Positions 1,502 to 57,000 of a DNA stretch of 64,000 nt are shown here, in pieces; the stretch's first letter is position 1, and every line of letters begins with the position of its first letter. The translations under genes and the position numbers were made by a program. The notes under the pieces are model-generated. The model saw nothing but the letters and a program-made list of their open reading frames with translations, was not told the origin of the DNA and ran no database searches. The DNA is taken from contig NZ_JAOQNS010000004.1 of assembly GCF_025961475.1 (NCBI RefSeq), positions 186,001 through 250,000 on the forward strand, given 5' to 3'. This DNA is from Rhodobium gokarnense. Lineage in GTDB: Bacteria > Pseudomonadota > Alphaproteobacteria > Rhizobiales > Rhodobiaceae.

Positions 1502-1738
1502 ATGTCAACGGAACTCACGGCTACCGTGTCCGAAACGGAAACCGAACGCGAAATTGCTGCGATCGCGCGGATGATTGCCTTTGCCCGCCAAAGCGCACAC
1601 GCGCAGGCGCTTGATCTGGTCACCTATTGCCTTGATACGGCGCTCGCGGCCGCGTTGGAGGAACTCGACAAATCGGCCGCCAACGCGGCCGAGGCCCAGG
1701 TCCACGTGGAGGCTCTCTGCGGTGAGGTGGTTCACTAG
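1502..1738 (+). CDS. Small helical protein downstream of YcaO-TfuA (possible precursor or partner)
   Basis: This 78-residue ORF has a good ribosome binding site (AAAGAGGGG) a few bases before ATG 1502, which decides the start over upstream codons. It is rich in Ala and Glu, predicted strongly helical, and has two Cys, one near the end in LCGEVVH. I do not recognise a family. Its place directly after YcaO-tfuA on the same strand makes it a candidate substrate (leader-like helix, short Cys-containing tail) or accessory protein. It could equally be an unrelated small island protein. The coding call rests on the RBS and on codon composition like that of its neighbours. Confidence 0.6.
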   Translation: MSTELTATVSETETEREIAAIARMIAFARQSAHAQALDLVTYCLDTALAAALEELDKSAANAAEAQVHVEALCGEVVH

Positions 1739-1834
1739 GCTAGCGCCAGCCGAGCTGGCCACGGGAGGCTAAACCGCCTGATTTGCCGCGCCTAAGTAAA
1801 GGTTCGTGGCATTTCCTTTAATTACGCCGACGCT

Positions 1835-1875
1835 AAGAAAAGGATGCCCGCTCCGGCAACAGCCGGGGCGGGCAT
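1835..1875 (-). terminator. Probable terminator of the ardA operon
   Basis: A 13-bp stem with one mismatch (arms 1844-1856 and 1863-1875, six-base loop) lies just after the ardA stop. Read on the minus strand it is followed by a short T-rich run (CCTTTTCTTAG). It therefore suits the leftward ardA transcript rather than the rightward small gene ending at 1738. Confidence 0.5.
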
Positions 1876-1890
1876 CGTGCTGGTGGACGA

Positions 1891-2415
1891 TCAGTAGCCC
1901 ATGATCAGGACGGTCTCGCCATCGATGTCAACCTCGTTGATCTCGCCGTTCAGACGCATGTCGCGGGCAACCGCGGCATAGTCGACGTAGTAGCGCAGCG
2001 CCTCGGGCAGCTCATAGCAGTCCTCGACCAGTTCCTGCGCGTACTCCTCGGCTGTGCCGTGCCAGACGGTCAGGTCGTCCAGCCGATCGGGGATATCGGC
2101 CATGGCGTAGCCGTTCTCGGCCAGATAGACCGCCTTGAGGTAGTCGTCGTTATCTGGATCAAGCTCCGCGAACGTCTCGAACCAGAGCGACAAGGTCGCT
2201 TGGTTGACGTTGAGGGCGTTAAACAGCCGCGCGTTGTCCCCGTCGATGAACTGGATTTCGTACTCTTCGACCGGCATGCCGTGGCGGTCGGTGTGCCCGG
2301 CCGCCCGGGCTTCATACTCCTCCAGGGCGGAGAAGTAGAAGCCTTCGGCGACGATGCTGTACGGCTGGGCGAAGTACACCGCCTCTGGCGGGTAGATGAG
2401 GGGAAGCGGGCTCAT
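1891..2415 (-). CDS. ardA: Antirestriction protein ArdA
   Basis: This 174-residue acidic protein has the ArdA signature: an N-terminal segment naming YEIQFIDGD, a repeated pattern of Asp and Glu on a DNA-mimicking surface, and a C-terminal YVDYAAVARDMRLNGE motif. ArdA mimics B-form DNA and blocks type I restriction enzymes, protecting incoming plasmid or ICE DNA. Length fits the family (about 165-180). The ATG overlaps the stop of the upstream 70-residue gene (ATGA), so the two are translated together. It supports the view that this region is a conjugative or mobilizable element. Confidence 0.93.
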   Translation of the reverse strand: MSPLPLIYPPEAVYFAQPYSIVAEGFYFSALEEYEARAAGHTDRHGMPVEEYEIQFIDGDNARLFNALNVNQATLSLWFETFAELDPDNDDYLKAVYLAENGYAMADIPDRLDDLTVWHGTAEEYAQELVEDCYELPEALRYYVDYAAVARDMRLNGEINEVDIDGETVLIMGY

Positions 2416-2624
2416 TTGCTCGCCTCCTGATCCCGGTTCACCTTGCGGACCACCGTCCGGCCCTCGACCAGCGGGGTGTAGTTGATGGCGAGGTTCAGGC
2501 CGTCGCCGTCGTTGTGACCCCAGCCCACGCCGATTTTCGTCCAGCGGGCTTTATCCCCGTCGCCGACCACATGAAAAACTTCGTGGGTCGGTGCCTTGTT
2601 GAATGTTTTGGTTTGTTTTGCCAT
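2412..2624 (-). CDS. Small conserved-type protein upstream of ardA
   Basis: This 70-residue, lysine-rich protein of unknown function is coupled to ardA by a 4-base overlap. A strong ribosome binding site (GAAGGAGAG, minus strand) sits a few bases before its ATG at 2624. It contains FHVVGDGDKARWTKIG and a GHNDGDGLN segment. No enzymatic motif is visible. Its partnership with ardA suggests a role in establishment of the element in a new host, but that is inference from position only. Confidence 0.75.
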   Translation of the reverse strand: MAKQTKTFNKAPTHEVFHVVGDGDKARWTKIGVGWGHNDGDGLNLAINYTPLVEGRTVVRKVNRDQEASK

Positions 2625-2646
2625 GTCGGCTCTCCTTCCTTTCGTT

Positions 2647-2780
2647 ACAGCCGCCCCATGCGGCTGGTCGGAAAGCCAAAAAGGCCGCGCCCATCAGTTC
2701 CCCGTGCAATGGTCTTCTCGGGAGACCGCTTGCGGCGGAAGACCGTTGCACGGGGGACGGGTCGGCCTAATTTCCGACCG
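2647..2780. repeat. Long nested imperfect palindrome upstream of the ardA operon
   Basis: The inner arms 2700-2717 and 2738-2755 pair over 18 bases with one mismatch around a 20-base loop. Outer blocks also pair: GGTCGGAAA near 2666 with TTTCCGACC near 2771, and AGGCCG with CGGCCT between. A second small hairpin (CAGCCGC/GCGGCTG) lies at about 2647-2665, next to the first gene. The whole folds as one long interrupted stem if single-stranded. It could be a single-strand promoter of the Frpo/ssi type known upstream of ardA-like genes in other plasmids, a replication element, or a transcription attenuator. Confidence 0.6.
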
Positions 2781-3009
2781 TTCCCGGCCGCGGTGGGCTG
2801 TTCTAAGGGAAGGAGAGGCCTGCTGCCCAAACCAGGGCTTAACACGGCAGACCCAACATGATTTGTGGACGGTAGGAGCTATCCCGCGAACTTAATCAAT
2901 GTGGCTGATTTGTCAGAGCAGGCGATCGGCATCTAATTCCGTCAATAAAAATAATTGCTAACAGTTGTTATTTGTGGGAGCCTTCATAGGAAGAACAGGA
3001 GGTGCCGAA

Positions 3010-3252
3010 ATGAACTTTTCCCTGGGCAAGAAGCTGGAAGAGTACGTGGCCGAGCAGATTGCGCGTGGCCCCTACAACAACGCCAGCGAAGTAGTGCGGG
3101 ATGCCTTGCGGTTGCATGAGGAGCATCATTTGAAGCTGGAAAGCCTGCGCCGGGATGTCCAGCGCGGCATGGAATCGGTCAAAGCCGGCAAGGTCAGCCG
3201 CGCCAGTGCCGACGAAGTGATTGCCAAAGCCAAACAACGGAAGCAGGGGTAG
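3010..3252 (+). CDS. parD: ParD-type antitoxin
   Basis: This 80-residue protein has a ribbon-helix-helix N-terminus (MNFSLGKKLEEYVAEQIARG) followed by NASEVVRDALRLHE, the typical ParD core. The C-terminus is a basic toxin-binding tail. ATG 3010 is chosen because AGGAGG sits 7 bases before it; upstream codons in frame have no such site. It is expected to bind the promoter in front of it and neutralise the adjacent ParE toxin. The next gene starts at the last base of its stop codon. Confidence 0.92.
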   Translation: MNFSLGKKLEEYVAEQIARGPYNNASEVVRDALRLHEEHHLKLESLRRDVQRGMESVKAGKVSRASADEVIAKAKQRKQG

Positions 3253-3584
3253 TGGACACCTGGTTTCTGTCACTCGATGCCGAAGAAGATATCCAGGACA
3301 TTTATATCTATTCCGAAGGGAAGTGGGGCGAGGACCAAGCCCGCAGGTACGTGTTCAGCCTGTATGACGTCTTCGCGACTATCGGCGATAATCCGCGCAT
3401 AGGCCGCCTCCGGCGCGAACTCGGTGACGGCATCCGCAGTCTGCCCCATGCGTCGCACATCGTGTTCTTCATGGAGTGGCAAGGCGAAACAGCCATCGTG
3501 CGCGTGCTCCATAAATCCCGCGATTTTGAGGACCTGTTCGGGACCTATAACCCGCTGCCCGGCATTGAAGAAAGCCAGCGGTAG
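3252..3584 (+). CDS. parE: ParE/RelE-family toxin
   Basis: This 110-residue protein has the ParE fold signature: an N-terminal beta strand and two helices (AEEDIQDIYIYSEGKWGEDQARRYV), then NPRIGRLRREL, SLPHASHIVFF and a final strand AIVRVLHKSRDFEDLF. ParE toxins act on DNA gyrase, while RelE relatives cut mRNA; the ParD partner favours the first. The start is GTG, overlapping the parD stop (TAGTG), so translation is coupled. It probably stabilises the island. Confidence 0.92.
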   Translation: MDTWFLSLDAEEDIQDIYIYSEGKWGEDQARRYVFSLYDVFATIGDNPRIGRLRRELGDGIRSLPHASHIVFFMEWQGETAIVRVLHKSRDFEDLFGTYNPLPGIEESQR

Positions 3585-3601: not shown

Positions 3602-5050
3602 TCAGCGTTCGGGCTCGCGGTCCCGGTCGTCGCGCTCGTATTCCTCGCGCATCTTTTCCTGCGCCCGCTCGAGGGTGTCGCGGGTTTCCGGTCGGTAGTA
3701 GGGACCAGGCTCCGGCTGGGTTTGACCCTGCTGTCCCTGACCCTGACCGCCAAGGAAATCGTCCAGGCGTTCCCGTAGACTCGGGTCCATCTCTTTTTCG
3801 AACCTGGAGAGGCGTTTGGCGTCATCCTCGGCCCGGATGTGCCGCATACGCTCCTCGATGACGATTTCCTTGATGCGGTCGCGGACCTCCGGGGTCGCCC
3901 CCTCGGCCAACGTCAGCAGCTCGCGCTCCTCCCGGTTCGGTCCCTGATTGACGGCCCGTTCCCAGACGTTTTGCTCGTAGGCGCTGCGCCGCTCGGTGAG
4001 GTCCTGTTCCAGGTCACGCACCGGCTCTCGGACAACCCGGTCGTATCCTTCGGGCATCTGATGCTCGGCACGGGCGCGCGACAGCGCGGCCTCATACCAG
4101 GGTTTGGGTTCCCGGGCTTGCTCACGCCGCCGGGCGGCATCTTCATTGGTACGATCCAGCCAACTGCCGAGATCCCGCCTGCGGACCTCGGCGGTATTGG
4201 CCTGTTCGGCTTCTGCCCTGCGATCATCCCAATAGCGTGCCAACTCGCCCCGTTCGTGCTGGCTCATGTCCCGCGCGGGCTGTTCGCTGGTCGGGGGCCA
4301 GTCTTCCCGTTCGGTCAGCAACGGATACGCACGGCGTTCATCGTCACTCGCCCGGCGGTTCATGGTCTGCTCCTTGAACTGGCGGGCCTGTACACGGCGC
4401 AGCGCACGCTCGGCCGGGTTGGGTCCGCGGTGTTTGGTCGGTTCAGCCTGGATGCCGCGAGCCTTGTGGCTGCGTTTGTCCAAACGCAGCGCGGACCCGG
4501 CAGCCTCCAGAAATTTGTTGCTGTTCGCTTCCCAGCCCGTTCGGGCTTTGGTCACGAAGGTTTTTTGATCCACGTTCGTGATCTTGGCCCCGAAGCCCTC
4601 CGGCTTCAGGGTACGGACGGTCAGCAGAATGTGGACATGGGGGTTGTGACCCGTACCGTCGTCATGAATGGCCACGTCAGCCACCATGCCTTGCGCCACG
4701 TACGGGGCGACAAAGGCATGGAGCAGGGGCACCCATTGATCTTGCGGGATGTCCCGCGAGATCGCCGCATCGATGGTCTTGGCCAGGCGGGCGTCGCGCC
4801 GCTTGGCGGTCGTATCGACCATGTTCCAGAGTTGGGCGCGGTCCCGCGCCCATGCAGGGGCACCCTCCGGTGCCAGTAGCGCGCTATGCACCACATCGGC
4901 CCGGTTGCCGAAATTGGTGACCTTGTTCTCGCGCTCATTCCAGATGGCCGTGCCGGAGTTGTAGGCCGCTTTCGCCACGGCGGAACGTTCTCCGCCGTCC
5001 GCCTTGCGTCGGGACAGGTTGTCGACGTGACAGTGGATGGTGTCCATCAT
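3602..5050 (-). CDS. mobA: MobA/MobL-family (MOBQ) relaxase
   Basis: This 482-residue relaxase nicks the transfer origin and leads the DNA strand into the recipient. The N-terminal domain shows motif I with the probable catalytic tyrosine (AVAKAAYNSG, Tyr30) and the metal-binding histidine triad HNPHVH (about 135-140). The C-terminal half is charged and coiled-coil-like, ending in Gln/Glu/Arg-rich sequence, with no primase or helicase domain visible. The start at 5050 (ATG ATG GAC) is chosen from the family start and a GAAGG upstream; 5074 is an alternative. It diverges from the TraG-like gene across the oriT. Confidence 0.93.
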   Translation of the reverse strand: MMDTIHCHVDNLSRRKADGGERSAVAKAAYNSGTAIWNERENKVTNFGNRADVVHSALLAPEGAPAWARDRAQLWNMVDTTAKRRDARLAKTIDAAISRDIPQDQWVPLLHAFVAPYVAQGMVADVAIHDDGTGHNPHVHILLTVRTLKPEGFGAKITNVDQKTFVTKARTGWEANSNKFLEAAGSALRLDKRSHKARGIQAEPTKHRGPNPAERALRRVQARQFKEQTMNRRASDDERRAYPLLTEREDWPPTSEQPARDMSQHERGELARYWDDRRAEAEQANTAEVRRRDLGSWLDRTNEDAARRREQAREPKPWYEAALSRARAEHQMPEGYDRVVREPVRDLEQDLTERRSAYEQNVWERAVNQGPNREERELLTLAEGATPEVRDRIKEIVIEERMRHIRAEDDAKRLSRFEKEMDPSLRERLDDFLGGQGQGQQGQTQPEPGPYYRPETRDTLERAQEKMREEYERDDRDREPER

Positions 5051-5099
5051 CGGCGTCGGCCTTCGGGTACGCATTCACCAAATCGCACGGCGTGGGGGT

Positions 5100-5210
5100 G
5101 CAGGGGGTCTCCCCCTGCCGCACTTCCGTGTTCGCCGGGCCCGCGAGGGACCTGCGAACGCGGCAATGTTGCGCAACCTGTACGCGTTGTGCAACATGTA
5201 AGTGCGCTGT
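5100..5210 (+). other. oriT: Origin of transfer (oriT), RSF1010-like
   Basis: Between the divergent relaxase and coupling-protein genes lies an 11-bp inverted repeat (5166-5176 and 5187-5197, one mismatch, 10-base loop). GTAAGTGCGC follows directly at 5198-5207. From family knowledge this matches the arrangement of MOBQ origins such as RSF1010/R1162: hairpin, then GTAAGTGCGC, then the nick. The nick is predicted after 5207, with the transferred strand reading rightward into the TraG-like gene. A second perfect hairpin (5100-5118) lies closer to the relaxase and may serve regulation. Confidence 0.8.
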
Positions 5211-5288
5211 TAGATGGATAAACATATCCCCGAACATGTTCCGGGGAAAGTTGAGCAGCCTGAAGTAGTTGCGTGCCGGGGGGGCTAT

Positions 5289-7022
5289 ATGGCGGACGAT
5301 CCGTTCGACCAGCTCAAGAACATGCCAATCCAGCCGGTCAAAGGCTTCGGGAACGAGGTCCGGGACGGTGTGCGGATCACTCAGGGCGGGCTGCGTGCCG
5401 GTCTGAGTATCGGCCGTGGCATGAGTGCCTGGATGCTCCGCCGCCGTTTGGAGAAGGAAGGCTACGACCCCATCACGATTGAGGCCGCCGTCGAAGCGGT
5501 GAAGGCCGGACGTGAGCCGGACGGTATCCTTGCCGCTGCTCAGCAGGCCTATCGGGCCAGGCGCAAACTCGATGAGATGCGGACCAACCCGCCGCCGATC
5601 CACGGCTCAGCGGCGTGGGCATTGCCCCAGGCACTCGTCGACGCCGGGTTCCTCGGTCCCGAGACCCAGGCGGACGGCCGCGGCATCCTGCTGGGGAAGG
5701 CGGACAGCGGCCAGCCGTTGCAGTGGGCCGGTGAAAGCCACCTGCTGACTGTCGCCCCTACGCGGACCGGCAAGGCGACGATGCAGATCATCCCGAACCT
5801 GCTCCACTACCGGGGCAGTGCGGTGGTGCTCGACCCGAAAGGCGAACTGGCTCTCGCCACCGCCCGCTGGCGTGCCGAGAACGTCGGCCCGGTCTATATC
5901 CTCAATCCGTTCGATATCCCGCAGTTCAACGGTGTCGGTCACGCGTTCAACCCGCTTGACCACGTCAAGGACGAGCGGGACGCGACCAAGCTGGCGGAGA
6001 TGATTTATCCCCGAACGGACGACGATCGGCAGCGGTTCTTCGATAACGAAGCCATCGGGTTCCTGTCCGGCGTGATTTTGTTCAACGCCCGCTATGCGCC
6101 CGAACCGCACCGGAACTTCGGCACCATTCGCGACACGTTATCCTCGCTCAGCAAGGACTTTTACGGCCTCTTGCGGGCTATGAGCGATCCCGTGATGCCG
6201 GCGGCGATCCGCAACGCGGCCCAGACGGTCCAGACCAAAACCCGCGACGTGGGCCAGCCCCGGCTGATCGACAGCCTCAGCCAATATCTGCGCATCTGGG
6301 ATACCCCCGGCCTGCGCCAGGCCACAGCACAATCTGACTTTGATTTTCGGGCGCTGAAGGATGCGCCGGCGACGGTCTATCTGGTTCTGCCGTTCGAAGA
6401 GATCAACGCCTACGGCACCTATGTGCAAATGGTCTTTGCCGCCGCGCTCGACGCCATGCTCGCCAATCAGGCCAAGCCCGATATCCCCGTGCTGTTTGTG
6501 CTCGATGAGTTTCTGGCGCTGGAAGCCGATGACCGGTTCATCAACGCGCTCAGGACCCATGCCAGTGCCGGGGTGCGGCTGTGGTTCTTCCTCCAGGACC
6601 TGCCGACGCTGGAACAGAAATACCCGACCACCTGGAAATCGTTCTTCCAGGCGGAGGTGAAGACGTTTTTCGGGACCGATGACCCGCATACGGCGGAACT
6701 GGTCTCGAACTATCTTGGCGACACCACCGTTGCGTACGAGTCGCCCAACACGAACATGGCGGTGGGCGGCGGCGGGGCGTCGTATTCGATTTCCGACAAC
6801 GTGCATCTGACCGGCCGCAAGCTGCTGAACCCGGACGAAGTGATCCGGTTGCTGGCCACGACCGACGCCTCGAAGCCGCGCAAGGCGGTGCATTTCCTGC
6901 GGGGGGTTGCGCCGGTCCAGGCCACCCTGACGCCATGGTTTTCAAACGAGACCTGCCGCACTCGACACGGCAACTGGAATGGGGGGAATCCCAATGGCGA
7001 CACTCGATCCGGCCCGACTTAG
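5289..7022 (+). CDS. VirD4/TraG-like coupling ATPase without membrane anchor
   Basis: This 577-residue protein is a type IV coupling protein, the ATPase that links a relaxosome to a secretion channel. Walker A is APTRTGKAT (about 156-164); Walker B is VLFVLDEF (about 401-408, D406/E407); PKGEL and GTDDPHTAELVSNYLGD further on are typical of TraG/VirD4. Classical members have two N-terminal transmembrane helices, but none is visible here. ATG 5289 is preferred (G-rich site upstream, no site before 5214); an ATG at 5214 would add 25 residues. Its end overlaps the next gene. No channel genes are seen, so the element may borrow a secretion system or carry one off-window. Confidence 0.88.
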   Translation: MADDPFDQLKNMPIQPVKGFGNEVRDGVRITQGGLRAGLSIGRGMSAWMLRRRLEKEGYDPITIEAAVEAVKAGREPDGILAAAQQAYRARRKLDEMRTNPPPIHGSAAWALPQALVDAGFLGPETQADGRGILLGKADSGQPLQWAGESHLLTVAPTRTGKATMQIIPNLLHYRGSAVVLDPKGELALATARWRAENVGPVYILNPFDIPQFNGVGHAFNPLDHVKDERDATKLAEMIYPRTDDDRQRFFDNEAIGFLSGVILFNARYAPEPHRNFGTIRDTLSSLSKDFYGLLRAMSDPVMPAAIRNAAQTVQTKTRDVGQPRLIDSLSQYLRIWDTPGLRQATAQSDFDFRALKDAPATVYLVLPFEEINAYGTYVQMVFAAALDAMLANQAKPDIPVLFVLDEFLALEADDRFINALRTHASAGVRLWFFLQDLPTLEQKYPTTWKSFFQAEVKTFFGTDDPHTAELVSNYLGDTTVAYESPNTNMAVGGGGASYSISDNVHLTGRKLLNPDEVIRLLATTDASKPRKAVHFLRGVAPVQATLTPWFSNETCRTRHGNWNGGNPNGDTRSGPT

Positions 7023-7983
7023 GAATCCGGTCTGGCCGACGGTGACGATCATGGTGATCGGCGCCATCATCGGCGTGTTCATCGGTACAGCGTTCGCGCT
7101 GACGACCGGCATGTTTGCCGCGGGCTTTGCCGGGCCACTGGCCTTCCTCATGTTTGGCCCGCTGGTGTTGGCTGAAGCCGGGGCCGGTCTCGCACTGGCG
7201 CTGGTCGCAGCACCGACCTGGGCCGGGTTCGGCGGCTGGCACTTCGGCGCAAAAGCCGCCACGCCCGGCGTGGCTGCGACCACCCTGGGCGTGACGTTGT
7301 TTTCGGAAGGTCACCCCATCCACCAGTACATCAACAAAAAAGCCGAAGAACTGTCGTTGCCGCCGATCAAATGGGTCGGCTGGTTCGATGATGAAGCGAT
7401 TAACGCCTTCGCGATGGGGACCACACAAGAGAACGCGCTGCTGGCGTTCTCACGCGGGGCGATCCAGAAACTGACCATGCCACAACTGGATGCGGTGATG
7501 GCCCATGAACTGGCGCACGTGGCCAACAACGATATGGCCCGCATGACCTATGCCTATGGCGCGCAAAACGCCCTGACCTGGTTCCTCTACTTTCGCGGCC
7601 TCAAGAACATTGCCCGCTGGCTGTTCACGCCCACGTCGCAGATCGAAATTATGCGGTTCTCGCGACAGCGGGAGTTCTGGGCCGATGCCGTTGCGGCGGT
7701 GCTCACCAACCCGGAACAGATCATCGGGGCGTTGGACGCGATCCAGAACGATGTAGCCAAGCCCCCGAAGCAACAGCGCGCATTCGCCAGTTTCATGCTG
7801 CGGGCCAACCTCAACAATCTGTTCGCCAGTCATCCGCCGATTTCGGATCGGATACAGGCAATCGAAGATGGCCGATATATCAAGCGGTTGCCCTACCTGA
7901 ACGCTGACGCGGCTCAGGGTGCGCCCACGACAGCACCGGTCGGGGCTGCTATGCCCGCGCCCGTGCGCGCTTCCGAACGTTGA
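6994..7983 (+). CDS. M48-family (HtpX-like) membrane metalloprotease
   Basis: This 329-residue protein has two or three hydrophobic segments in the first 90 residues and then an M48 peptidase domain with the zinc motif HELAH (in VMAHELAHVANND) and a downstream third ligand in SRQREFWADAVAA. M48/HtpX enzymes cleave membrane or misfolded proteins at the inner membrane. It overlaps the coupling-protein gene by 29 bases and is probably cotranscribed with it. The last five codons fall inside sequence homologous to the integrase 3' end, so this gene's terminus was formed or altered at a recombination junction. Its job on the island is unknown. Confidence 0.9.
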   Translation: MATLDPARLRNPVWPTVTIMVIGAIIGVFIGTAFALTTGMFAAGFAGPLAFLMFGPLVLAEAGAGLALALVAAPTWAGFGGWHFGAKAATPGVAATTLGVTLFSEGHPIHQYINKKAEELSLPPIKWVGWFDDEAINAFAMGTTQENALLAFSRGAIQKLTMPQLDAVMAHELAHVANNDMARMTYAYGAQNALTWFLYFRGLKNIARWLFTPTSQIEIMRFSRQREFWADAVAAVLTNPEQIIGALDAIQNDVAKPPKQQRAFASFMLRANLNNLFASHPPISDRIQAIEDGRYIKRLPYLNADAAQGAPTTAPVGAAMPAPVRASER

Positions 7984-8205
7984 TCGCCGAGGCATTAAGC
8001 TGCGTCTTGATGTGCGCGGCATAGTGCTTCTCGATCATTTCGACGCTGGTGCGGCAGTTCTTGGCAACCTGATAGATGTCAGCGCCTTCCAGCAGGGCAG
8101 ACAGATATAGGTATGCCGTAGGCTGTAGGCCGTGCGGCGGGCGCTTTCATGCTCGAGCTTGAACACTGTTACCAGCAAAAGCGGTTGAACCGCTCATTGT
8201 AGATG
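7966..8205 (-). pseudogene. Relic of a tyrosine integrase C-terminus
   Basis: Bases 7966 to about 8145 match the 3' end of the intact integrase (12996 to about 13181) in the same orientation, with only scattered differences. The copy has lost one base near 8096 (CAGGGCAGAC against CAGGCGCAGAC), which breaks the frame. Read through frameshifts it gives RRTAYSLRHTYIC and VEMIEKHYAAH, including the active-site Tyr. Upstream of that (8145-8205) it still reads like an integrase (RFNR, VFKLEHESA) but differs from the intact copy. It is therefore the remnant of a related, not identical, integrase. No intact start or stop remains. Confidence 0.85.
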
Positions 8206-9330: not shown

Positions 9331-10852
9331 TTATCACGAAATAATAAAAACGCTTAAATATCCGTACAGTGATACGCTTTTTACAGCCAATGGCGGCATT
9401 TTCTTTTGTGACGACTGTATTGTTAAGATTTCTCCAATTTCAATTAAAGATGTTATTCAATCAGTTAAAGAAAGGAAAATTTATGAGGAGCAAGATATCG
9501 ATGTTTCTTCAGAAAAATGCACGCTTAACGGAAAGCATTACAAAGTGGAGAAATTTCCATTATATGCAGAAAATAGGTTTCTTGCCAATATTCTATGTTC
9601 AAAAGACAAAGTAAATATAGAAAGGATAGTTGCCAGCCATTTTTCACTAAGTAAGGTGTTCCCGCGCGATCCTGTGCTCGCGAAAACCTATTTCGCGGCA
9701 CTTCGGAAGAATTTTAGGGAACAAAAAGCACACTTACATACGGAATATAGCCACGAGTTAGGTGAATTAGAAAGCGTGTTTCTATTTCTTATGGCTGCAT
9801 CGGAGGCGAATGAAAGATTGAATGCCCGCATATCGGCACTTCATTTGTGCCACGGAGATGTCCATCCAGGAAATATTCTCTTGCATGGTAGTCGATGCTT
9901 GTTTCTCGACCCTTCAACAGGGCCTAGATATCATTCAAGGAATTTTGTTTGGAATGATTTGGCCGCACTTGCGGGGAGTTCTATAATGTTAGCAAGGGAG
10001 GACGTTGCCGAAAATGTGATTTCTTGTTTGGATGGTCTGTATCATGATTTCGATCTGAGGTTGTTTAGTCAGTGGATGATTCTTAAATCTTTGGTCCGGG
10101 TTCGATTTGAGCGTTCGATACTTAATTTAAATGGGCACATGCCATCACACCGATTGTATTGGCGAAAGGAGTTGGTTACAAACGGTTTAAAACGATTAAT
10201 ATTTTATATAGACTCGTCTAACCTGCTTATACGCCGCGGAAGGCGCTGCTTCTCTCAAAATGATTTGCACGTAATTATTAATAGAAGCGATAAGATGTTG
10301 GAGACATTGAACTTCAGAAGAGTTGAACTCGTTTACAAGTCAACTGTTCTGCTTGCTGTCTATGCTGCTATTCTTGCGGCAGATATACAGGCGCTGTCGA
10401 CTATTGATAGCGGTGCAGTTGGGAAATATGCACGGTTTCTCGCTCTTGTTAGTTTATTTGCGGCTCTAATTGGTGCCATTAAGACATTGGGAATCATAAA
10501 GCGGTTATCAAAACCGAGAGGGAGCCGACGTATTCGTGGGAGAATTTTCTTTTTTGGTTGGATCGCTGGGCAAGAACAAAAAGTTTTACGAGAAGTCCTG
10601 CTCGAAAGCGATCCTGAAAAACTCATTGATGAAGTCGGACGCCAAGCGGTTGCTTTGTCTTTGAACTTAGAGGATCGATATGCGGCGCTTAGGTGGGCCT
10701 ATCGTTGGGCCGTCATCGCACTGACAATGCTTTGCGCCTATGCTGCTGTCGGCCCGTCCATAGAATTACTTAATGGCGTGACTAGTTGGTTGGCCGCATG
10801 GGACATTCGGGATATGGTAGTGTTGTTTTTGGAGTTTTTCCAAAGGGAGTAG
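9314..10852 (+). CDS. APH-like kinase fused to Pycsar-effector-like membrane domain
   Basis: This 512-residue protein has two parts. Residues 1 to about 300 resemble aminoglycoside phosphotransferase/choline-kinase-type kinases: VKI (Lys38), the catalytic loop HGDVHPGN (180-187) and FLDPS (Asp199), then NDLA. Residues about 330-480 have a hydrophobic helix at about 343-362, another at about 373-393, the segment FFFGWIA (412-418), a charged helix ending in GRQAVALSLNLEDRYAALRWAY, and a third hydrophobic helix at about 463-480. That order and spacing look like the PycTM/DUF5706 domain of Pycsar effectors. TAGGAG sits 5 bases before ATG 9314, inside the end of the radical SAM gene. The kinase call is firm; the membrane domain identity is by eye. 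Confidence 0.75.
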   Translation: MQLDSNYHEIIKTLKYPYSDTLFTANGGIFFCDDCIVKISPISIKDVIQSVKERKIYEEQDIDVSSEKCTLNGKHYKVEKFPLYAENRFLANILCSKDKVNIERIVASHFSLSKVFPRDPVLAKTYFAALRKNFREQKAHLHTEYSHELGELESVFLFLMAASEANERLNARISALHLCHGDVHPGNILLHGSRCLFLDPSTGPRYHSRNFVWNDLAALAGSSIMLAREDVAENVISCLDGLYHDFDLRLFSQWMILKSLVRVRFERSILNLNGHMPSHRLYWRKELVTNGLKRLIFYIDSSNLLIRRGRRCFSQNDLHVIINRSDKMLETLNFRRVELVYKSTVLLAVYAAILAADIQALSTIDSGAVGKYARFLALVSLFAALIGAIKTLGIIKRLSKPRGSRRIRGRIFFFGWIAGQEQKVLREVLLESDPEKLIDEVGRQAVALSLNLEDRYAALRWAYRWAVIALTMLCAYAAVGPSIELLNGVTSWLAAWDIRDMVVLFLEFFQRE

Positions 10853-12975: not shown

Positions 12976-14124
12976 TCATCCATCGTTTTTTGACACGCGT
13001 TTCCGAACGTTGATCGCCGAGGCGTTGAGCTGCGTCTTGATGTGCGCGGCGTAGTGCTTCTCGATCATTTCGACGCTGGTGCGGCAGTTTTTGGCGACCT
13101 GATAGATATCAGCGCCCTCCAACAGGCGCAGACAGATATAGGTATGGCGCAGGCTGTAGGCCGTTCGGCGGTTGCCCTGGCGGTCGTACTTGAGGCCTTC
13201 TTCCTCCAGGATCCGGTTGAACCCTTTGCGGTGATAGGCCGGAAACAGCTTGTCGGTGGGGGCAGGGGTGTTGCGCTCGACCATCCGCTTGAACGGATGC
13301 ACGGCCCCGGCCGTGCTCTTGCAGTAGCCGACCCCGCGCTTGCCCCGCACCTCAATCACCAGAATGGTTTGGCCGCCGTCCTGCTCAATCGACACGTCCC
13401 GGTATTCGAGGTTGTTGGCCTCATCGGGCCGCAGGCCGGTGTTGGCCATGAACAGCACATAGTCGTGCATCTGCTCGGCCGCCCATTGCCATTTCTTGCC
13501 CTGGGCTGCCTTCGCGTTGCGCCGGGTCGCCTGATAGAGCTTCTTGTAGTCCTCCGGTGAGAACCACGCCCGATGGGTGACCTTCCGGGAAAGCTGGTAG
13601 GGCGTTGAGAAGTCGGGCAGGTGCCCAATCCAGCCCTCGCGCAAGGCGGTCTTCATGACCTGCCGGAGCACGACGATTTCCTGATTGAGCGTGCTGTGTG
13701 CCGGCACTTTGCCGTTTTCGTCCGGCGTTCGCCGGAGCACCCGGTACTCCTGCAACAGGCCGGGGGTGATTTCCGACAGGCCCTTGGTGCCGAAGAACGG
13801 CAGCAGGTGGTTGTTTAGCCGTCCCTGGTGGTTCTGCACATACCGCTCGTTCCGCTCCCCTGCGGTCATCACCGCGTACTGCGTGGTGAACAGCTTCGCC
13901 GCGTCGGCAAACGTCTTCTCGTTCTTGATCTCGCCGCGGCGCACCTTGACGCGCAGTTCCAGATACCAGTCCTCGGCAAACTCCTTGGCGCGGGCCAGGC
14001 TCTTCTCACGGGTGCTGGTCCGCATCTTCTTGCGGTTGACGTAGGTATGGCACTGCCAGACGGAGCTGCTGCTCCGTTTGTAGACCCGAACCTTCCCGCC
14101 CAGAATGGAATGCGATTCAGCCAT
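12976..14124 (-). CDS. int: Tyrosine recombinase/integrase of the island
   Basis: This 382-residue site-specific integrase has a basic N-terminal arm-binding domain, a core-binding SAM-like domain around residues 60-170, and a catalytic domain with Arg in NTGLRPDEANN, YSLRHTY (HxxR box with Tyr in the first position) and the nucleophile in EMIEKHYAAH. It starts about 90 bases from tRNA-Gln and reads away from it, the usual layout for an element inserted at a tRNA 3' end. The gene is GC-rich, unlike the cargo to its left. The last few residues (after about 12,995) differ from the relic copy and are probably added at the cargo junction. Confidence 0.93.
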   Translation of the reverse strand: MAESHSILGGKVRVYKRSSSSVWQCHTYVNRKKMRTSTREKSLARAKEFAEDWYLELRVKVRRGEIKNEKTFADAAKLFTTQYAVMTAGERNERYVQNHQGRLNNHLLPFFGTKGLSEITPGLLQEYRVLRRTPDENGKVPAHSTLNQEIVVLRQVMKTALREGWIGHLPDFSTPYQLSRKVTHRAWFSPEDYKKLYQATRRNAKAAQGKKWQWAAEQMHDYVLFMANTGLRPDEANNLEYRDVSIEQDGGQTILVIEVRGKRGVGYCKSTAGAVHPFKRMVERNTPAPTDKLFPAYHRKGFNRILEEEGLKYDRQGNRRTAYSLRHTYICLRLLEGADIYQVAKNCRTSVEMIEKHYAAHIKTQLNASAINVRKRVSKNDG

Positions 14125-14216
14125 GGCACACCCTCCGAAAAGTGTGCCTGCAGTGTGCCTGCGGTTTTTGGCGAAAATGTGAGTCGAAAGACCGACCGTA
14201 AGTATCTGATTTTGCT

Positions 14217-14290
14217 TGGCTGGGGAACCTGGATTCGAACCAGGACCGACGGAGTCAGAGTCCGCTGTTCTACCGTTAAACTATTCCCCA
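14217..14290 (-). tRNA. tRNA-Gln (anticodon CUG)
   Basis: The minus strand folds as a full cloverleaf: acceptor TGGGGAA/TTCCCCA with the U1-A72 pair typical of tRNA-Gln, anticodon stem GCGGA/TCCGT with loop CTCTGAC (anticodon CTG), and T arm with TTCGAAT. Discriminator G and CCA are encoded (14220-14217). The 3' end points towards the integrase at 14124, so this gene is the probable attachment site of the island and has been left intact. Confidence 0.95.
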
Positions 14291-54021: not shown

Positions 54022-57000
54022 ATGGCGCCGCGACGGCTCCAGCCGTTAACACAGCATACCCATCACGTTCACAGCGCCTTCGGCATCCTGCTGCGGGTGG
54101 CGCTGGTGCTGGTTGTGGTGACGGCGATCGCCATCGGCGCCTTCGCCTGGCGGGTCTCCAGCGGGCCACTGACCCTCAACATCTTTGCCGAGGCCGTGCG
54201 GGCGCGGATTGCCGAGGCCGTCGGTCCCGACGCCAGGGTCGGGCTGTCCGCCATCGTCCTTGCCTGGTCGGAGGACGGCGGGCCGCGGGTGCGCCTGCGC
54301 GGCCTCGTCATCGCTGATACCGAGGCCGGCTTCGAGGCCGAAGTGCCGACCGCGGACGTCCGGCTCAACGGTTTTCAGCTTGTCATCGGCCGGGTCTCGC
54401 CGCGGGCGATCCGGGTCTATTCGCCCCGCGTGCGCATCCCGGTCGCCGGCGGCGCCAGCGCGTCGCCGGAAACGCTTTTGGAATTCGCCGATCACGCCTT
54501 CAAGGGCACGCTCGCCGGCGCCCGCTCCATCGGCCTTTCCAGCATCCGGGTCGAGGACGCCACGGTGGAGATGCGCTCCACCGACGACGATGGACACAGC
54601 CGGACCTATTCCAGCGTTTCCGCCGATCTCGGCTTTGCCCACGACACCCGCACGACGACCCTCGACGTCAGCGGCATCGGATTCGGCGGCAAATGGTCGG
54701 CGTCCGCGGTGCATCGTCCGGACCCGGCCTCCGGCGGCTCGGTGCTGGCGCTTTCCGGCACCGACATTACCGTCGACGACGTCTTCGGCATCGGCGATGC
54801 CGCGCGCACCGGGTCCGCCACCCGTATCCCGCTCTATCCGAGCTTTGCGGCCCAGTATGACGAGGTCGGCCGGCTGACGGCAGCGCATATGAAGCTGGTC
54901 GTCGGCGCCGGCCATGTGCCGTTCGGTGGCGGCTCGCCCTATCTGCTCGACGAAGCGGTGGTGGACGTTGCCTGGGTGCCGGACGAGAAGGTCTTCAAGA
55001 TCGGGCCCTCCGTGGCCGAGTTCGGACCGACGAAGCTTCCCTTCACCGGCATCGTCGTGCCGCCGCGCGGCCCGGAGGCGGCGCTTTGGGAGTTCGGCGT
55101 CGAGGCGCGCGATGTGGAAATCGCCTCGCCCTTCGAGGGCGAGCCGCCGACGCCACTCGACCTGGTGGTGACGACCGGGACGTTCGACCCCGATCTGCTC
55201 CGGATCGGTGTGACGAAATTCCAGGTCGGTGCCGGCGCGACGCCGCTGATCCAGTCGACGGCCGTCGTCGATCTCGGTGCCTTCGGGCCGAAACTGGAGG
55301 TCGACGGCCGGCTCAACGCGGTCCCGGTGCACGAGCTGAAGCGGATCTGGCCGGAATTCATCGCCCCGCCGGCGCGGCGCTGGATCCTCGACAACGTCGT
55401 CTCCGGCGACACCGTCGACGGCAGCTTTCGTGCCGCGGTCGGCGCGGAGGAACTGGACGACAATCCGGAGACCTGGGGCTGGGGCGAGGACGACCTGACG
55501 GCACACTTCACCGTCAGAAACGCCGTCGTGAAGACCTTCGGCGAGATGCCGGCGGCCAGGGCACCGGTCGCGACCGGGCAGATCGACGGCGGCCATCTGA
55601 AGGTCGAGATTCCCGGGGCGAGCCTCACGACCGCTTCCGGCGGGAAGGTCACCGTCGACGAGGCGGTGTTCGAGATCGCCGACATCAGGCCGCCCAAGCA
55701 GACGGCGAGCCTGCGCCTGCAGCTCTCCGGTCCGACCCGGAACGTTGCCGAGGTCGTCAACGCCAAGCCGATCGAGGCGCTGGGGCCGATCGGCGTTACC
55801 CCCGCCGCGCTCGGCGGCACGGCGACCGTGAAGGCGGGGGCGAGCTTCGCGCTGCTGCGCGAGCTGTCCTTCGACGATGTGGACTACGGCCTGACGGCGG
55901 AGCTTGACGATTTCTCCTCAAAGACCCCGATTTCCGGCAGGAAGGTCACCGACGGCACGCTCTCCGTCACGGTCGCCGAGGGCGTTGCGCGGATCGACGG
56001 CAAGGCCCGGTTCGACGGAGCGATGGCAACCGTCGACCTGACGGAGCCGCTCGACGGCAGCGGCGGCGGCGCCAGCAAGGTCGGCATCACCCTGAAGCTC
56101 AGCGATGCGGAACGGCGCGAGCAGGGGCTCGACCTCGGCGGGCTCCTCACGGGTCCGATCGAGGTCTCGATCGCGTCTGAGGGCGACGGCGCCGACAGGT
56201 ACGAGATCGACCTGAAGGACGCACGGCTCGCCGTTTCGCCCCTCGGCTGGGCCAAGGAGCCCGGCGTTCCGGCGACGGCCCGGTTCCGGATCGCCGGTGC
56301 CCGCAAGAACGAGGTCAGCGACCTTCGGATCGAGGGCAAGGATTTCGCGATCGCCGGCCATGTGGTGCTTGACGACAAGGGCGACCTGAAGTCGGGCGAG
56401 CTGACGTCGGCGCGGCTCGGACGGACGGTCATCGACCGGGCCGTGATGCGGGCCTCCGACGCCGGCCAGGACGTCGTCCTCACGGCGAGCGCGATCGATG
56501 CGCGTACCATCCTCAAGGGCATCACCGACGTGCGCGGCAAGGACGAGGGCGCCGACCTGGAAGGCGATTTCCACATCCGCGGCAAGATCGGCACCCTGAT
56601 CGGCTTCAACGGGGCCAACTTCTCCGGCGTCGACCTCGACGTGACGGTCGCCGGCGGCAGCCTCAGGGCGCTGAAAGTCACCGGCAGCTCCGGCAAGCGC
56701 GGCCGGCTCGACCTGACGCTGAAGCCGGACGGCGCCCGGCGGGCGCTCTATGTGGAATCCGACAATGTCGGCGACTTCCTGCGCTTCCTCAACATCTACA
56801 AGCGCATGCAGGGCGGCTCCGGCGAGATCACCGCCGCCCTCGGCGACGGCACGGCCTCACAGGGCCGATTCCGGATCAGCGACTTCCGGGTCACCGAGGA
56901 CCCGGCCCTGAAGCAGCTCGTCGCCCGCGGCAATTTCGAGGATCGGCTGCGCGGTGACCGCCCGGTCAACATCCGGCCGATCGCGGAAAGCGGCGATACG

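Follow-up and report, generated by a model that had tools for sequence, protein, structure and literature searches.

Experimental knowledge of single-strand promoters comes from a few enterobacterial plasmids, and the systems closest to the locus described here are Frpo1 and Frpo2 of plasmid F and ssi of ColIb-P9. These are long hairpins of the transferred strand (310 nt) that end just before the first gene, carry −35 and −10 elements in the stem, use the transferred strand as template, fold more favourably on that strand and precede establishment or anti-defence genes. Folded sites of another kind, the sso sites of rolling-circle plasmids, act on the displaced strand and sit just behind nic. 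The sso1 site of ICEBs1 is orientation-specific and composed of three stem-loops (PMC4595007). Samuel et al. 2024 (PMC11541004) described hairpins with predicted −35 and −10 elements before anti-defence genes of the leading region; these Frpo-like candidates came from BLAST searches in which five known Frpo/ssi sequences and candidates of a few islands served as queries. A search for Frpo together with leading region and Rhizobium gave no match in the literature within reach, from which preprints at bioRxiv and most subscription journals are excluded.

The window, a stretch of 64,000 nucleotides from Rhodobium gokarnense, contains a comparable hairpin. Its plus strand, the predicted transferred strand, folds between 2630 and 2817 into one imperfect hairpin of ~190 nt, with 2630 paired to 2817 (single-strand DNA fold), and the minimum free energy of −60.6 kcal/mol compares with −37.3 ± 3.4 for dinucleotide shuffles (z −6.90; 0 of 200 shuffles equal). 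The initial annotation had noted an interrupted palindrome at 2640-2790; the palindrome exists, with z-scores of −5.45 and −5.90 when each strand is folded separately, and by the fold its extent is larger, 2630-2817. The arms of the inner palindrome, 29 nt each, span 2689-2717 and 2738-2766, and the apical motif TCTCGGGAGACCGC..GCGGCGGAAG (2716-2741, plus strand) is kept in relatives. The left arm of the outer stem (2630-2642) pairs with 2805-2817 and is complementary to the Shine-Dalgarno region of the gene that follows, which encodes a 70-aa protein. On the right arm, also on the plus strand, a −35-like box, TTGCAC (2746-2751), non-template for the operon only in the folded strand, is followed 16 nt further by a −10-like box, TAATTT (2768-2773), both As of which lie in an internal loop. 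A 6-nt bulge (2781-2786) occupies the position where the start site would be expected, and the template junction opposite to it, 2664/2665, would give a leader of ~40 nt. Within the left arm lies, in addition, a small inverted repeat, ACAGCCGC..GCGGCTGGT (2647-2670), that the predicted transcript would carry in its 5′ leader; several relatives have a similar one.

In its predicted working the hairpin resembles Frpo (PMC9849209, PMC11541004). It shares with Frpo1, Frpo2 and ssi the features given above and differs from them in its length of ~190 nt, its own apical motif and its occurrence on alphaproteobacterial MobQ plasmids and integrated elements, where it may lie on the trailing side. With the candidates of PMC11541004 it shares a predicted hairpin with −35 and −10 boxes before anti-defence genes; in contrast to the present set, "alphaproteobacteria" has 0 occurrences in the main text of that paper, and its passages on the hairpins describe no covariation test. 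Comparison with positions 50-67.5 kb of plasmid F, which include Frpo1 and Frpo2, gave no sequence similarity (best E 0.17). Because sequence kinship is absent and the hairpin lies here outside the leading region, we describe it as a kind of single-strand promoter outside the Frpo family. It would best be read as an alphaproteobacterial Frpo-like promoter class without detectable sequence similarity to Frpo.

The palindrome stands directly before a two-gene operon on the minus strand, as first annotated. The first gene (2412-2624, minus strand) encodes the 70-aa protein, and the second (1891-2415, minus strand), whose start overlaps the stop of the first by 4 nt, is ardA (Pfam ArdA PF07275, E 1.5e-9; anti-restriction PHROG). 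The initial annotation had named the hairpin as a possible single-strand promoter in front of the ardA operon; the hairpin goes with the 70-aa gene, as the first gene, and not with ardA alone. The 70-aa protein has relatives and no match in Pfam, NCBIfam or PHROG. Its AlphaFold2 model (pLDDT 79.3, pTM 0.64) returned nothing in Foldseek at E 0.001, and VIA-align gave a best Z of 3.3, an uninformative score. The family, distributed across alphaproteobacterial plasmids and without a Pfam family, is a candidate establishment or anti-defence protein. An ordinary double-stranded promoter upstream of the operon, the alternative raised at the outset, was dropped: consensus scans of 1700-3200 and of 2600-3020 revealed no sigma70-like promoter toward the operon, and the only match common to both scans, at 2926 on the plus strand, is directed away from it.

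Relatives of the 70-aa protein occur in 20 plasmid records, 10 genome-contig loci and 34 of 199 genomes, the R. gokarnense genome counted. When the strand complementary to the 70-aa gene was folded in 56 entries, almost every close relative and plasmid copy gave a hairpin of about the same length that stops at the start of the gene; a clear hairpin is lacking in several of the more distant homologues, such as L036, L042 and L045. Fourteen close loci were aligned by sequence alone, with a mean column identity of 61%. RNAalifold on this alignment covers 33 pairs, with the outer stem outside them, and two-sided compensatory change keeps the pairing in 18 of the 33. Paired cells account for 93.2% of the total, a value reached by none of 500 shuffles, and drop to 36-47% when the partner is slid by 1-3 columns.

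A covariance model (R1), built from 13 of the 14 close sequences (without L019), matches 12 among 397 genomes from the order and misses the plasmid-type hairpins; what unites the close and plasmid groups is therefore their position, box spacing and shape, and not a common model. The exact apical motifs are narrow, since the pattern matches 2 of 385 genomes of the class (one being the window's own), the plasmid-type motif 1 of 385, and viral contigs contain neither. On the L015 contig, the model also matches a second hairpin (9898-10028; 57.4 bits), which lies ~330 nt ahead of a 104-aa ORF without assigned function.

The promoter signature was defined on 40 loci anchored on a TTG located beyond the apex and chosen without regard to the −10 box. 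Duplicates (L017, L020, L057b) were removed, nine distant or doubtful loci (L060, L033, L036, L040-L045) were dropped before the anchored analysis, and L038, L052, L053 and L059 were dropped for want of a TTG anchor. The dinucleotide [T/C]A is found at a spacer of 16 in 28 of the 40 loci, at a spacer of 17 in five and at the other spacings tested in 0-5; the remaining 12 loci have no YA at spacer 16. After clustering at 75% identity, spacer 16 accounts for 15 of 26 loci and spacer 17 for four. Read toward the gene, TTG-N16-YA is present in 27 of 39 right arms versus 3 of 39 left arms, and because the signature is confined to the right arm, the boxes face the gene only when the strand is folded and face away from it in the duplex. 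The A at −11, kept in 30 of 40 loci, has a mean unpaired probability of 0.53, versus 0.08-0.17 in the six preceding positions. At 33-37 nt from the start of the TTG, the place expected for initiation, there is a second unpaired patch (0.46-0.79 unpaired). The check suggested with the initial annotation, folding the strand and seeking −35/−10-like mismatches, yields TTGCAC-N16-TAATTT in the right arm of the hairpin; each box shares 3 of its 6 positions with the E. coli consensus, a weak match. Across the loci, it is the conserved TTG-N16-YA that supplies boxes reconstituted in the stem toward the gene. The ArdC/ArdA-type hairpins of L071, L072 and L074 keep the apical motif and not the N16 spacing.

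We consider it likely that the hairpin is a single-strand DNA promoter for the 70-aa gene and ardA; this reading, already proposed in the initial annotation, gains support from the compensatory pairs, the TTG-N16-YA signature, the strand stability and the strand relation to oriT. When the plus strand is single-stranded, the arms would pair, with the right arm serving as non-template and the left arm as template. The right-arm sequence TTGCAC-N16-TAATTT would be recognised by RNA polymerase, with the unpaired −11 A and the start-site bulge as probable aids, and transcription would begin at ~2664 and read outward across the 70-aa gene and then ardA. In duplex DNA the boxes point away from the operon, and synthesis of the second strand would therefore switch the promoter off. 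Were the operon transcribed from a double-strand promoter further upstream, the RNA would include the two arms and the Shine-Dalgarno sequence could be buried in it; the transcript of the folded promoter, without the right arm, would leave it open.

The hairpin is located in an integrative mobilizable element of ~30.8 kb, which extends to the left of the window and is bounded by 53-bp direct repeats of the 3′ end of tRNA-Gln(CTG). One att repeat lies at 14212-14264 and the second at about window coordinate −16634 (C4:169366), and the gene of a tyrosine integrase (12976-14124, minus strand) adjoins the tRNA-Gln. To the right of the hairpin, the element encodes parDE (3010-3584), a MobQ-type relaxase (3602-5074, minus strand), a VirD4-type coupling protein (5214-7022, plus strand), the latter two by family profile matches, and an M48 peptidase. 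No VirB4 was found in the genome, so the element is probably helper-dependent. Direct repeats at 7966-8162 and 12996-13193 (131 and 66 nt, 93% and 80% identical), one copy of which overlaps the integrase gene, flank a 5-kb cargo composed of a radical SAM protein, an APH/PycTM-like protein (PF18967, E 1.2e-5) and a metallo-beta-lactamase-fold protein. At 13-1391 of the window, a TfuA-like gene (PF07812) stands behind another gene, an arrangement resembling the YcaO/TfuA pairs of peptide modification, the first member being presumably YcaO.

The oriT-like site (5165-5213, plus strand; motif at ~5165-5207) consists of an inverted repeat followed by TAAGTGCGCT, with the predicted nic at ~5206 and plus as the transferred strand. 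Among 27 sources, 14 contain the TAAGTGCGC motif behind an inverted repeat, at a total of 15 oriTs (two in L057), and at each of the 15 the hairpin gene has the nic-motif strand as its template. The initial annotation's strand argument, in which plus is both the transferred strand and the template of the minus-strand operon, is borne out by this relation. For the cleaved strand and the placement of the repeat 5′ of nic, we assume the polarity of RSF1010-type oriTs. This polarity agrees with the usual location of the relaxase gene in the lagging region (PMC11541004). The gene direction is shared by ~68% of the genes on these plasmids (121 of 177; six tables counted), and since most genes thus run one way, the oriT strand rule alone is modest evidence.

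The side of oriT on which the hairpin lies varies. Four plasmid records (L046, L054, L057, L058) have it on the leading side, at 3.7-8.7 kb; the window and nine other loci (L006, L007, L008, L011-L014, L047, L056) have it on the trailing side, behind nic. The window hairpin would enter ~28.3 kb after nic in an element of ~30.8 kb, so the reservation made at the outset, that ardA enters late and that this weakens the idea of early expression, is justified, and early expression would be of lower value. Because late entry resembles the position of an sso, sso activity is the main rival and a possible second function: RNA polymerase or a primosome would prime the second strand along nearly the whole transferred strand, and ardA expression would be secondary. 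As the main role of the hairpin we regard this as unlikely. At the window and the nine other trailing loci, the hairpin stands just behind nic with the right polarity, close to the 3′ terminus of the displaced strand, and it may resemble rolling-circle sso sites and ICEBs1 sso1 as a folded, orientation-specific site on that strand (PMC4595007); Frpo, to judge by the title of Masai and Arai 1997, promotes primer RNA synthesis too. The four leading-side plasmid records do not fit this placement. Unlike the three stem-loops of sso1 (PMC4595007), the present site is a single long hairpin whose end falls on a Shine-Dalgarno sequence; among close loci and plasmid copies, it borders directly on the Shine-Dalgarno sequence of the gene and fronts anti-restriction genes, and an sso needs neither.

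Comparison of the two strands revealed that the transferred strand, complementary to the gene, forms the more stable hairpin in 37 of 40 loci, by a mean of −5.7 kcal/mol (DNA parameters). The same bias is present in 24 of 26 clustered anchored loci and in 44 of 53 distinct loci, with only 7 of the 13 loci outside the 40 folding better on the transferred strand; control stretches inside the operon gave 23 of 40, no significant strand bias. In plasmid F, used as positive control, the transferred strand is likewise the more stable for Frpo2 (−84.6 vs −76.0) and Frpo1 (−90.1 vs −79.1), ahead by 8.6 and 11.0 kcal/mol, respectively. In L082 (plasmid F), a large hairpin (z −4.3) is likewise formed by the transferred strand at 6276-6755, upstream of the antirestriction gene annotated at 56755 and beside its start.

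The strand-biased stability argues for DNA folding over an mRNA leader, that is, a hairpin in a transcript from an upstream promoter that would hide the Shine-Dalgarno sequence and regulate translation. The Shine-Dalgarno region does lie within the outer stem, but the mRNA-sense strand is the less stable one under RNA parameters as well (35 of 40 loci), the scans gave no upstream promoter, and a leader would leave TTG-N16-YA on the antisense arm unexplained, which makes this alternative very improbable. One-by-one mismatches on the transferred strand also speak against it in the close group (12 G.T vs 2 A.C), though the other loci (10 vs 8) show no such excess. A known RNA family was rejected, as the Rfam scan gave no match for the hairpin and tRNA as the sole match above threshold in the window.

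Long palindromes can be mobile repeats, operators or cruciform sites, but for this hairpin a mobile palindromic repeat (rejected for its single copy), a protein-binding operator or a cruciform site without promoter function is hardly credible, given one copy in the 5.1-Mb R. gokarnense genome, a fixed place before one gene family and compensatory divergence.

Taken more widely, the single-strand promoter reading leads to a tentative proposal, to which we give slightly less than even chances: a separate class of single-strand promoters, not related to Frpo by sequence, would be spread across alphaproteobacterial mobile elements and act as a DNA direction switch, and the trailing copies would double as second-strand origins, so that anti-restriction expression and strand completion would start at one site. 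A covarying alphaproteobacterial family with its own architecture would widen the principle beyond the sequence relatives of Frpo. Such a promoter would mark anti-defence genes, the 70-aa family included, and its conserved signature would help to find further single-strand promoters. The presence of the hairpin on either side of oriT makes timing versus priming testable.

The second gene behind the hairpin is ArdA-like in 10 of the 14 close loci (judged by eye; by Pfam scan for the window's) and an annotated DNA methyltransferase in seven plasmid records (L046, L047, L051, L054, L055, L056, L057). Hairpins with the apical motif also precede ArdC-like genes in L070, L071, Maritalea and Roseivivax (annotated as zincin-like in the latter two) and an ArdA-like gene in L072; the gene names in L070-L072 are those we presume from sequence resemblance. 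In L069 and L074, the hairpin core stands before genes without a clear anti-restriction role, and the association is thus not exclusive. In pNGR234a the order is the same: the core of the hairpin, then the small gene as a broken copy, then a homologue of ardA.
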